Shown one piece after another: positions 37,258 through 42,579 of a stretch of DNA of 42,579 nt. Positions within the stretch are counted from its first letter, which is position 1. Each line of letters begins with the position of its first letter. A model generated the notes under the pieces. That model searched no databases. It worked only from the letters and a program-made list of their open reading frames with translations, and was not told where the DNA came from. The translations under genes were made by a program, and so were the position numbers. The stretch is taken from the NCBI GenBank assembly GCA_009698745.1, contig WLPO01000002.1, positions 1 to 42,579 of the forward strand, in the 5' to 3' direction. The DNA is from Actinomycetota bacterium. Its GTDB lineage: Bacteria; Actinomycetota; Acidimicrobiia; Acidimicrobiales; Ilumatobacteraceae.

Positions 37258-38172
37258 TTAGCTACAACGAGCAAGCAATGCTTTCATGCCATCAGGCATT
37301 TCGGCTTCAAACGACATTGCTTGCCCGCTGATCGGATGTAAAAAAGCCAACTGTGCGGCGTGCAACATCGGACGCGGAGCCGAAAGAGAACTTCGCGCAC
37401 CACCATATGTCGAGTCCCCCACCACGGGATGCCCAATGGATTCGAGATGAACTCTGATTTGATGAGTTCGTCCAGTTTCAAGATTGCACTCAACCAACGA
37501 ACTTGGCAGTGGCAGATCAAACTTTGATTTCACCTCAAATCGTGTGCGAGCGGCTTTGCCGTCGACAACGACTCCCATGCGAGTTGGATCTTTCTGATCT
37601 CTGCCGATGGGGGCATCGATCGTGCCGGACAAAACGGTTGGGTGTCCCCATACGAGTGCCAAGTAGGTGCGCTTCACCTCGCGCTTTGACAACGCGTCTA
37701 CCAGTGCTTCGTAGGCTGCTTGTGTTTTCGCCATCACCATCAAGCCAGTCGTGCCGGCATCTAGGCGATGCACAACACCGGGACGCAAGGGGTCGCCGGC
37801 AGATGCCATTTCGGGAAACATCGCAAGAGCCCCATTGACCATCGTGCCTGTTGGGTTTCCGGCACCGGGATGCACAACCAAACCTGCACTCTTATTTATC
37901 ACCACGACATCAGTGTCTTCATAGACAACGTCCAAGATCACCGATGCATCAGCTGTTGGCAATTCTTTTTTAGGCAACAAAGCAGTGTCAATTGCGATCG
38001 TCTGGCCTTCAGCGATTTTGGTTTTGCCAGTCTCGGCACACACACCGTCGACCACCACTCCACCTGCCTGAATCAAAGAAGCCGCAGATGCACGACTGAC
38101 ATCGGCGATCAGAGCAACAATACGGTCGAGACGTTGGTCGTTGAGCGCCGCTGGAATAATTTCATTCAGCAC
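37258..38172 (-). CDS. rluD: 23S rRNA pseudouridine synthase, RluD/RluA family
   Basis: N-terminal S4-like domain; VHRLDAGTTGLMVMAKT catalytic motif; GRTHQIRVHLESIGHPVVGD. Confidence 0.93.
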   Translation of the reverse strand: MLNEIIPAALNDQRLDRIVALIADVSRASAASLIQAGGVVVDGVCAETGKTKIAEGQTIAIDTALLPKKELPTADASVILDVVYEDTDVVVINKSAGLVVHPGAGNPTGTMVNGALAMFPEMASAGDPLRPGVVHRLDAGTTGLMVMAKTQAAYEALVDALSKREVKRTYLALVWGHPTVLSGTIDAPIGRDQKDPTRMGVVVDGKAARTRFEVKSKFDLPLPSSLVECNLETGRTHQIRVHLESIGHPVVGDSTYGGARSSLSAPRPMLHAAQLAFLHPISGQAMSFEAEMPDGMKALLARCS

Positions 38173-38711
38173 TAGTGGCCGTCCGTTCGTTCGATCTGAG
38201 AGTTGTACTTGAGCATTGCCACGATCATTGTCGCGGCTCCAATCATGATTGCCATGTCGGCGACATTAAACACTGGCCACCATTGAAAATCTATGAAGTC
38301 AATAACGGCTCCACGCATCCACCCGGAATCTCGAAAGAGGCGATCCAAGATGTTCCCCATCGCCCCACCGATGATCAAACCTGTTGCAAGGCGTGTCAAA
38401 ACATTGTCGGCTCGACGCAGTGACAACAACAGCATCACCACAACGACAAGTCCAATTACACCGATTATTGGTCCTACTCCTGTTCCGCGTGAGAATGCCA
38501 TCCCACGGTTGTACGTCAAATTAAATTGCAGTGTCCAGATCACATGAATGACGCGACCATCAACGAGGTCTCGAAGAGCCCAGGCTTTGGACATCTGATC
38601 GAGCACCGCAATAACGACGGCAACGAACACACTCGTGCGCATTGATCGAACCAGCGTCATTCGGTTACCTGTTGGCGTTGTATGAGTTGCGTCTGGTGCA
38701 GCGTCGATCAT
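38172..38711 (-). CDS. lspA: Lipoprotein signal peptidase (signal peptidase II)
   Basis: GGAMGNILDRL and VIDFIDFQWWPVFNVADMAI catalytic Asp motifs; multiple TM segments. Confidence 0.95.
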   Translation of the reverse strand: MIDAAPDATHTTPTGNRMTLVRSMRTSVFVAVVIAVLDQMSKAWALRDLVDGRVIHVIWTLQFNLTYNRGMAFSRGTGVGPIIGVIGLVVVVMLLLSLRRADNVLTRLATGLIIGGAMGNILDRLFRDSGWMRGAVIDFIDFQWWPVFNVADMAIMIGAATMIVAMLKYNSQIERTDGH

Positions 38712-39817
38712 CGACGGCCAATGCCACCGACACGCTCAAGAACCGATTCTGTTGTCTCCGGAATCGCTTTGAGACGCTCGCGAGGAATCGCCAATCCGCT
38801 GTGTATGGAATATCCATACTCACCGGTCTTGATTCGCTCGAGTGCAGCATCCAACTCTTCGATGATCTGCCTAGCTTGTGCCGACAACATGAGGTCACGA
38901 GAGCGCTCAACCACCATGGTGTCGCCTTCGCCGCCTTCTTCGTCAAACTGCACATCGCCCATTTCGACATCTTGAATGAGTGAATTTGCCTCATCGTCAA
39001 GACGAAGTGCCTGTCGCAGCAATACTGCTTTCTTTTCGAGCATCAACTCGCGTTGACCGGCCAAGAACTTGAGGTCAAACTCTTTCGTTGCTTGAATGCC
39101 GTCGGCGAATTCGGTTTTGATAATTGGTGGACGCGGTGGTGGCTCTGGCTTTCGCTTTGCTCGCAATGCGGCCTCGCGTGCAGCTTCTTTTTCTGCTGCA
39201 AGTGCAAGTCGAGCTGCTTCTTTCTCTTCTCGGATACGAGCCTTCTCGGCTTCCTGTGCTGCCTTCAGCGCCAACTTTTCTGCAGCAATGCGCGCCTTTT
39301 CCTTAGCTGCCTCTTTTGCAGCCAATGCCTTCAGCTTTTGCTGCAGCGCCAAATCTTTCTTGCGCTGTGCTGCAATCTTTTTGCGCTCCATCTCTTTTTC
39401 GCGCATTGCCTTTTTGCGTGCAACTTCAAGTGCTTTTTTAGCAGCGACCTTCTTGGCTAACTCGGCCTTTTTAAGTGCAAGAGCTTTCTGGTCAGCGAGC
39501 TTCTTCTGCGCAGCGAGCTTCTTCTGCGCAGCTACTTTCTTTGCAAGATCGGCCTTTTTCTTGGCTAGTGCTTTTTGTGCAGCGAGCTTTTTTTGCCCAG
39601 CGAGCTTCTTAGCAAGATCAGCCTTTTTCTTGGCAAGTGCTTTTTGTGCAGCGAGCTTCTTCTGCGCAGCCAGTTTTTTCGCCAGTTCAACTTTCTTCTT
39701 TGCCGCGAGTTTCTTGGCCAGATCGGACTTCTTCTTGGCGAGTGCTTTTTGCGCCGCCGCCTTCTTGGCCTGGTTCTTTTTAACTAAGGCCTTTTTCTTT
39801 GCTGATGCTGATGGCAT
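38708..39817 (-). CDS. DksA/TraR-like protein with long Lys/Ala-rich N-terminal domain and no zinc-finger cysteines
   Basis: C-terminal coiled-coil plus ALERIKTGEYGYSIHSGLAIPRERLKAIPE resembles DksA/TraR; about 220 aa of KKLAAQKALAKKKADLA-type repeats; start ATG 39817. Confidence 0.82.
   Translation of the reverse strand: MPSASAKKKALVKKNQAKKAAAQKALAKKKSDLAKKLAAKKKVELAKKLAAQKKLAAQKALAKKKADLAKKLAGQKKLAAQKALAKKKADLAKKVAAQKKLAAQKKLADQKALALKKAELAKKVAAKKALEVARKKAMREKEMERKKIAAQRKKDLALQQKLKALAAKEAAKEKARIAAEKLALKAAQEAEKARIREEKEAARLALAAEKEAAREAALRAKRKPEPPPRPPIIKTEFADGIQATKEFDLKFLAGQRELMLEKKAVLLRQALRLDDEANSLIQDVEMGDVQFDEEGGEGDTMVVERSRDLMLSAQARQIIEELDAALERIKTGEYGYSIHSGLAIPRERLKAIPETTESVLERVGGIGRR
39493..39530. 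repeat. Perfect tandem duplication of an 18-bp unit (AGCGAGCTTCTTCTGCGC x2)
   Basis: Read directly; encodes AQKKLA repeats on the minus strand. Confidence 0.92.
39543..39680. repeat. Near-identical 69-bp tandem repeat (two copies, 39543-39611 and 39612-39680)
   Basis: GCAAGATC(G/A)GCCTTTTTCTTGGC(T/A)AGTGCTTTTTGTGCAGCGAGCTT recurs with 69-bp offset; encodes a 23-aa repeat. Confidence 0.85.
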
Positions 39818-39840: not shown

Positions 39841-42579
39841 TTACCGTACTTGATCGACGCCTATGTGGACGGGATTCCCATCCAGATCCCCCGTTGGATC
39901 GAGCCCTTGAACCCAATCAATGCGCTGTGCAAGGGTTTCAGAGGCAATATAAGACTCAAATTGGGACACTTGTGACTGCAGCGACTCTGGCAAACCGAGC
40001 GTTAACACAATGCGATCAGAAACGGCCAGGCCAGCTTCGCGCCGAGCTTGTTGCACCATGCGCACAATGTCGCGTGCGGCACCTTCTGCAAGTAGCGCAT
40101 CGGTTAATTCGATATTCAGCAACACGATCCCCTGGCCATCGGCAAGAGCAGCGCTTGCGACCGTTTCGGTATCGCCCGCAGCGGCAACCAGACGAACCTG
40201 AAACTCGTGTGGTTCAAGTACCACCCCACCAGCAATGACTACGTCACCGTTGATGGACCAATCGCCTTTCTTCACCGCAACAATCACTTTTTGGGTATTG
40301 GCGCCAAGGCGCGGACCAAGAGCAGCCGGTATGAGTTGCAATTCGTGTTTGGCCACTTGGCCGAGCTCCGTTGTGAGTGTCACTTTGTGCACATTCACTT
40401 CGTCGGTGATAATTGAGACAAACGATTGCAGTGCGTTAGCCAACGGTGATGCAACGGTGAGTTCACCAAGTGGCAGTCGAACACGGCGCGAATGCACCTT
40501 GCGCAATGACAACGTTGTCGAACACACATCACGAACTTGATCCATTACTTTTTCAAGCTCGTCATCGCTCGGCACAATGCTGGCGTCTGGCCAGTCCTCT
40601 AAATGCACACTTCGCTCGCCGGTGAGTTCTTTGTAAATCTTTTCGGTGGTCAGCGGCAGCAGAGGCGCGGCAATGCGGGTCAATACTTGCAACACCGTGT
40701 GCAACGTATCGATTGCATCCTTGTCGCCTTTCCAGAATCGATCCCGGCTGCGACGGATATACCAATTTGTCAGAACATCCAAAAACGTTCGCACTTGCTG
40801 GCATGCATTGAAGATGTCATATTGATCCATCGAAATCGTCGTGTCTTCAATGAGACGCTTCAATTTTGAAAACACGTAACGATCCAACACATTTGTTGAG
40901 TCGTAGCGAACCTCGCCTGTCATTGACTCGGCATTGGCATACAGTGACAAAAAATACCAGCTGTTCCACAATGGCAACATCACTTGACGCACTGTGTCGC
41001 GAATACCTTCTTCGGTTACCGCAAAATCCGATCCACGCAAAATTGATGAAGACAACAGATACCAACGCATTGCATCAGCACCATATGTATCAAACACGTT
41101 CATAGGGTCTGGATAGTTGCGCAGACTCTTGGACATCTTTGCTCCGTCATCACCCAGCACAATGCCGTGACTGACGCATGTAGAAAAAGCGGGACGATCA
41201 AACAACGCTGTTGCCAAAACATGCAGCGTGTAAAACCAACCGCGCGTCTGACCGATGTACTCAACGATGAAGTCACCTGGGTAGTGCTGATCAAACCATT
41301 CCTGATTTTCAAACGGATAATGCACCTGGGCAAACGGCATTGAGCCACTCTCAAACCAGCAATCAAGAACCTCGGGAACCCTGCGCATCATCGACTTTCC
41401 AGTCGGATCATCAGGGTTTGGTCGCACTAAGTCATCTACGACCGGGCGATGCAATTCGGTAACCGTGACACCAAAGTCGCGCTCGAGGTCGGCAAGACTT
41501 CCATACACATCGATACGCGGATACGCCGGATCATCACTACGCCAAACAGGGATCGGTGAGCCCCAAAAACGATTGCGGCTGATCGTCCAATCGCGAGCAT
41601 TTTCAAGCCACTTACCAAAACTTCCATGCTGCAAGTGATCGGGTACCCAAGTGATCTCTTCGTTCAACGCAACCATGCGCTCTTTTACGGCAGTCACATT
41701 GACAAACCATGAGCTCACGGCTTTATAGATGAGTGGCTTTCCAGTGCGCCAACAATGTGGATAAGCGTGATCGTATGTTTCATGACGCAATACGACGCCA
41801 CGCGACTTGAGTTCACGGATAATGAGTGGGTTGGCGTCAAACACCAACATTCCAAAGAAGTCTGGAACTTCACTTGTAAACAACCCACGGCTATCGACCG
41901 GCACAACAAGCCCAATGCCATTTTCGCTACATACACGTTGGTCGTCTTCACCAAAGCCAGGGGCAAGATGCACTACTCCAGTGCCGTCTTCGGTTGTAAC
42001 GAAGTCACCCGCAATGATTCGAAATGCATCTGGCTGATCGGCAAAGTACGAAAACATCGGCGTGTATGTGCGGCCAACCAATGTCGAGCCGAGCACAGTG
42101 TCCAACACCTCGGCGCCTTCCAACTCTTTTTCATATGCACCAAGACGGGCTTCGGCCAAGATGTACACAGTTCCGTTATGGCGCACTCGCACATAACTCA
42201 CGTCTGGCGCAACTGCGAGAGCCAAGTTGCTCGGCAAGGTCCATGGTGTGGTCGTCCATGCAAGTAGTGATTCGCCAGTCTCGAGCACAAACGCGACAGT
42301 GAGTGCAGGATCTTGCACTTGCTTATACGCGTCGTCCATACGCGTTTCTGTGTTCGACAATGGAGTCTCAAGCGCCCACGAATACGGAAGTACGCGAAAC
42401 CCTTCGTAAATCAGACCCTTGTCCCACAGAGTCTTAAATGCCCACATCACACTTTCCATGTAGGAGACATCGAGAGTTTTGTAATCGTTGGCAAAATCAA
42501 CCCAGCGAGCTTGGCGAGTTACATAACGCTCCCAGTCACTGGTGTAACGCAACACTGATTCTTTGCAGTACTCATTAAA
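39841..42579 (-). CDS. ileS: Isoleucyl-tRNA synthetase, 5' end truncated by window boundary
   Basis: [52 protein letters not shown]; reading frame stays open to 42579 ([14 protein letters not shown]), so the HIGH-motif N-terminus is outside. Confidence 0.96.

Follow-up and report, generated by a model that had tools for sequence, protein, structure and literature searches.

A cysteine-free DdbA-type DksA homologue with a lysine-rich tail encoded between ileS and lspA in Ilumatobacteraceae

A gene in the window (the whole stretch of DNA analysed, 42,579 nucleotides) encodes a 369-aa protein that combines a long lysine-rich N-terminal tail with a C-terminal DksA-type domain and contains no cysteine. 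On balance, we regard this protein as the probable Ilumatobacteraceae orthologue of DdbA, in which the tail would bind DNA, the metal-free DksA-type domain would be held on the nucleoid and a family-specific beta-hairpin would aid its fold. What is apparently new is the cysteine-free state of a DdbA-type protein throughout a family, the graded distribution of that state and the hairpin.

Aldridge et al. reportedly presented DdbA in 2013 as a bifunctional histone H1-like/DksA-like nucleoid protein. According to four later reports, DdbA (SCO2075) of Streptomyces coelicolor is a nucleoid protein whose N-terminal domain resembles histone H1 and whose C-terminal domain resembles DksA; it is expressed in sporulation and compacts spore nucleoids, and its absence alters both chromosome compaction and resistance to stress (PMC11942623, PMC9043899, PMC7985256, PMC11229371). 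An earlier sequence-only reading of this DNA hypothesised a protein that binds the nucleoid and interacts with RNA polymerase as well; this is plausible by analogy, but it is already the published description of DdbA and therefore not new.

The features considered are collected in Table 1. The boundaries of the gene are exactly those given by the sequence-only reading, which had also correctly placed it between lspA and ileS and seen no cysteine anywhere in the protein (0 Cys in the translation of the open reading frame).

Table 1. Features of the cysteine-free DksA-type gene and its neighbours (positions in the window)
Feature	Residues	Position	Strand	Details
CDS, cysteine-free DdbA-type DksA homologue	369 aa	38708..39817	(-)	ATG at 39817, stop at 38708
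Lys/Ala array	1-145	39383..39817	(-)	K48, A42, net +41
Mixed-charge K/E/R/A segment	146-225	39143..39382	(-)	net +11; helix-forming
Beta-hairpin DG-I-x-x-T-K	234-244	39086..39118	(-)	AlphaFold2 model; orthologue comparison
Antiparallel coiled coil, two long helices (249-285, 297-331)	249-331	38825..39073	(-)	AlphaFold2; Foldseek to DksA
Acidic glycine-rich coiled-coil tip DVQFDEEGGEGD	288-299	38921..38956	(-)	nearly invariant across orthologues
Degenerate zinc-finger region YGYSIHSG...RERLKAIP...SVLER	334-369	38711..38818	(-)	alignment
ileS, runs off the window		39841..42579	(-)	stop 39841, 23 bp upstream of the DksA-type gene; similarity across loci
lspA		38172..38711	(-)	overlaps stop codon of the DksA-type gene (ATGA, 38708-38711); similarity across loci
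rluD-type pseudouridine synthase gene		37258..38172	(-)	overlaps the end of lspA; similarity across loci

Judging by these spacings, ileS, the DksA-type gene, lspA and the rluD-type gene read as a single tight operon. The start of the protein, M-P-[ST], is kept in relatives in the alignment, and the C-terminal domain occurs in 20 of 22 further genomes of the same genus and in 56 of 61 relatives overall. In a phylum-wide sample of 247 genomes, 164 have a match at 1e-12, some of these matches being paralogues. Records of the close relatives belong to Ilumatobacteraceae/Acidimicrobiia and are mostly metagenome-assembled, but also include Ilumatobacter itself. At most loci read, lspA and the rluD-type gene come next on the same strand; ileS upstream is co-directional in Ilumatobacteraceae and several other families and divergent elsewhere. 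The position adjoining ileS and ahead of lspA-rluD holds across Actinomycetota. In S. coelicolor, lsp is SCO2074 (PMC4941574) and DdbA is SCO2075, matching this synteny.

Other DksA-like genes were encountered as well. A separate set (L210, L211, L212, L213 and L216), not adjoining lspA or ileS within the stretches read, carries one cysteine in a YGxCDDTGEPIPRGRLEA motif, except that L212 has none, a likely further zinc loss. A second, short DksA/yteA-like match in genome G000 (contig C42, 12448-12582; 5e-6, one internal stop) is possibly a remnant paralogue.

The C-terminal ~150 aa had been described as DksA/TraR-like, and comparisons of both the sequence and the predicted structure uphold this. 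Residues 226-369 are acidic (net -8), and their homology to DksA and yteA is well above chance: residues 256-359 match NCBIfam yteA (3e-13) and DksA TIGR02420 (4e-7), both under the curated equivalog/subfamily cut-offs, and a 14-row profile matches 6ptg, 2kq9, 4ijj, 1tjl and also TraR in the PDB. The single Pfam match, to the unrelated family BssS (0.028), is weak, lies below the cut-off and was judged to be chance. The sequence-only reading had called for a structure prediction. AlphaFold2 models two long helices and a small globular domain (C-domain pLDDT 83.8), and a Foldseek search with the modelled domain returns DksA2 (4ijj, E 1.2e-4) as the best match and E. coli DksA (1tjl) as the next, with probability 1.00; the predicted fold of the C-terminal domain is that of DksA. 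No viral fold match was obtained at E <= 0.001, and a viral origin or a phage TraR was rejected.

Purifying selection on the DksA core is strong. Comparisons among species of the genus give the core a dN of 0.02-0.16 and a dS of 0.65-2.7 (dN/dS about 0.02-0.1); the Lys/Ala array changes more quickly (dN 0.10-0.40), and between the nearest species core dN is about 0.02 versus 0.10-0.40 for the array.

Features linked to RNA polymerase are partly retained. DksA and TraR share a DxxDxA motif at the coiled-coil tip and an arginine contacting the RNA polymerase rim helices, equivalent to TraR R48 (PMC9239242). The DxxDxA motif is absent from the tip of the 369-aa protein, which reads DEEGGEGDT where the alignment is ambiguous by 2-3 residues; across orthologues the tip follows the almost invariant pattern DVQF-D-[DE]-E-[GS]-GEGD. 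The rim-helix arginine is kept in the profile alignment as R348, which is invariant and aligns with the R of RRLEARP in 1tjl. For the second ppGpp site of E. coli DksA, we take the contacts to be K98, R129 and K139, whose equivalents in the profile alignment are Glu, Ile and Arg, the last alone being conservative. Since K98 and R129 align to Glu and Ile, an E. coli-style DksA-ppGpp site or synergy is not supported by the alignment. Production of ppGpp itself is probable, because relA/spoT is present in the genus and also within the window, where the homologue (84-2159, (-) strand; TIGR00691, 3.7e-229) lies ~36 kb from the DksA-type gene on the same contig.

Two other readings of the domain turn on these residues. 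The protein may be chiefly a nucleoid-compacting, H1-like protein whose DksA-type domain is a folded cap or protein-protein module and has ceased to enter the secondary channel of RNA polymerase, as the loss of all zinc ligands, a tip without DxxDxA, the change of two of the three ppGpp-contact residues and the large basic tail would suggest. However, the core is the most constrained part of the protein, the tip is nearly invariant and R348 is invariant, which is more than a mere cap would need, and we consider this reading unlikely. Alternatively, the acidic, near-invariant tip DEEGGEGD might sit near the catalytic Mg of RNA polymerase and rescue backtracked complexes in the manner of a Gre factor, with the tail keeping the protein near DNA; GreA and GreB tips do carry a DxxExA-type motif (PMC9239242). 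A separate GreA is nevertheless encoded in 21 of 23 genus genomes, on which ground replacement of a Gre-type factor was rejected, and family and fold searches give DksA, not Gre, making such a role quite improbable.

The feature that sets the Ilumatobacteraceae protein apart is the loss of the zinc ligands. As had been seen from the motif YGYSIHSG, the zinc-finger cysteines are replaced, the C4 positions being held by S337, S340, S358 and E361 (SSSE). The count of cysteines covered 173 distinct orthologue cores, all from genes adjoining lspA or rluD: three or four are present in 66 cores, one or two in 13, and 94 lack them altogether. The ligands form a series from CCCC through CSRY, with one cysteine, in other families of the order to SSLE/SSSE in Ilumatobacteraceae. 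An orthologue survey had been proposed as a check for a local sequence problem: all four cysteines are missing in every family-level relative examined, and C4 is confined to the order's other families and to lineages outside the order. We rejected a local sequence error or pseudogene, given that the cysteine-free state is common to relatives and that purifying selection acts strongly on the core. At six loci in scattered families of actinobacterial orthologues, the fourth cysteine is replaced by Asp (CCCD for CCCC).

In a tree from which the four ligand columns had been left out (123 columns, many open forks), cysteine-free rows form one clade with support 100/99, and this clade is the family Ilumatobacteraceae. 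Three changes suffice to account for the overall loss of zinc competence; the four ligands were perhaps lost through a one-cysteine intermediate, the order of the C4 and C1 families not being fixed by the tree. Functional DksA proteins without zinc have been described (PMC9213440, PMC9239242), and the C4 zinc finger is not strictly needed for DksA-like function (PMC9239242).

Loss of the ligands coincides with the beta-hairpin, which is predicted with a pLDDT of about 94. A DG[IV]xxTKxF-type hairpin is found in 94 of 94 cysteine-free cores (5 of them degenerate) versus 0 of 79 cysteine-bearing ones. It immediately precedes the first coiled-coil helix, a point that the DksA topology places at the foot of the coiled coil, next to the globular domain, and thus lies beside the former zinc site. 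The hairpin may stand in for zinc as a structural staple; because hairpin and ligand loss each arose once, their association counts as a single event and is no proof by itself.

The tail is ~220 residues long with a total net charge of +52. The earlier description of a ~220-residue Lys/Ala repeat domain was right about the length, but the Lys/Ala array spans just the first ~145 residues and the remainder is a charged K/E/R/A segment. The array holds recent tandem units of 69 bp and 18 bp, seen as DNA repeats, and its length varies between species; residues 146-225 show no gaps within the genus in the alignment. A DNA-level repeat artefact was rejected as a full account of the tail, as the array uses a mixture of Lys and Ala codons and different genera share the tail composition, although tandem units do exist. 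AlphaFold2 predicts a single continuous helix over residues 29-221, with pLDDT ~85-94 for residues 90-210 and <50 for most of the initial 30, bearing in mind that AlphaFold-type models tend to over-predict helix in low-complexity charged sequence. Of the 50 tree rows at order, family and genus level, 47 have a Lys-rich tail, defined by a 40-residue stretch with a Lys content of at least 20%. Its style shifts between genera and the core remains constant; at two loci from other Ilumatobacteraceae genera, nearly perfect (KKELAR)n or charged-helix tails take the place of PAKKA tails. Two HU proteins from the genus are without a Lys/Ala tail, so the tail encoded by the DksA-type gene may be among the main H1-like ones in these cells.

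Binding by Lys-rich tails is not limited to DNA and can extend to RNA. The tail might hence bind RNA instead of the chromosome, with a role in translation or RNA metabolism that would fit the translation-related operon partners ileS and rluD. Those neighbours are, however, unrelated housekeeping genes, and deletion of ddbA in Streptomyces alters chromosome compaction (PMC11942623, PMC11229371); we hold an RNA-directed role to be very improbable.

In the DdbA-like mechanism that we favour, the +52 tail would bind DNA without sequence preference, as its composition and DdbA suggest, and would keep the DksA-type domain on the nucleoid. The globular domain in Ilumatobacteraceae would no longer use zinc and would keep its fold metal-free, like DksA2, probably with help from the family-specific hairpin; binding to RNA polymerase would then couple DNA compaction to transcription. 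A bolder version, which we put forward tentatively and think somewhat doubtful, is that the whole family rebuilt the globular domain as metal-free, the newly gained hairpin taking over the structural role of zinc, to give a redox- and zinc-independent regulator of RNA polymerase that is tethered to the nucleoid by a rigid basic helix of ~190 residues.

DdbA-type proteins thus reach beyond Streptomyces sporulation. Their gene is an old one in actinobacteria, with a fixed place next to ileS-lspA, and it also occurs in bacteria with small genomes that are known mostly through metagenomes of aquatic origin. Furthermore, the graded C4, C1 and C0 series in one operon context amounts to a natural experiment on why DksA-type proteins use zinc, be it for fold, zinc sensing or a thiol switch, and the hairpin is a concrete, testable candidate for a zinc-finger replacement.

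Compared with known systems, the 369-aa protein shares with E. coli DksA (1tjl, 5vsw) the coiled coil, the globular domain and the equivalent of the rim-helix arginine; it differs in lacking both C4 and the DxxDxA tip, in having changed two of the three ppGpp contacts and in its long basic tail. Its best sequence-profile match is Chlamydia trachomatis Dks (6ptg), whose finger starts with Cys-x-x-Ser and has the second Cys pair absent in the aligned part, as in the one-cysteine sister families; unlike our protein, 6ptg is a 132-residue chain without a Lys/Ala tail and retains one finger cysteine. Pseudomonas aeruginosa DksA2 (4ijj), the top Foldseek match, likewise has the DksA fold without zinc, but it keeps two cysteines (PMC9213440) where the 369-aa protein has none, and its solved chain has no Lys/Ala tail. 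DksA2 is moreover a paralogue induced by zinc starvation, whereas the 369-aa protein is the product of the main DksA-type gene of its genome, in a housekeeping operon. There is also a likeness to DdbA, compared by description: both have a Lys-rich N-terminal tail and a DksA-type C-terminal domain, encoded beside lsp. Lys/Ala-tailed homologues beside lspA and ileS in 7-10 Mb genomes of the phylum sample, standing in for SCO2075, show the same arrangement. Unlike these homologues, which are CCCC or CCCD and whose ileS is divergent, the Ilumatobacteraceae protein has lost all ligands, carries the hairpin ahead of the coiled coil, has a proline-poor tail predicted as a single long helix and is encoded co-directionally with ileS.
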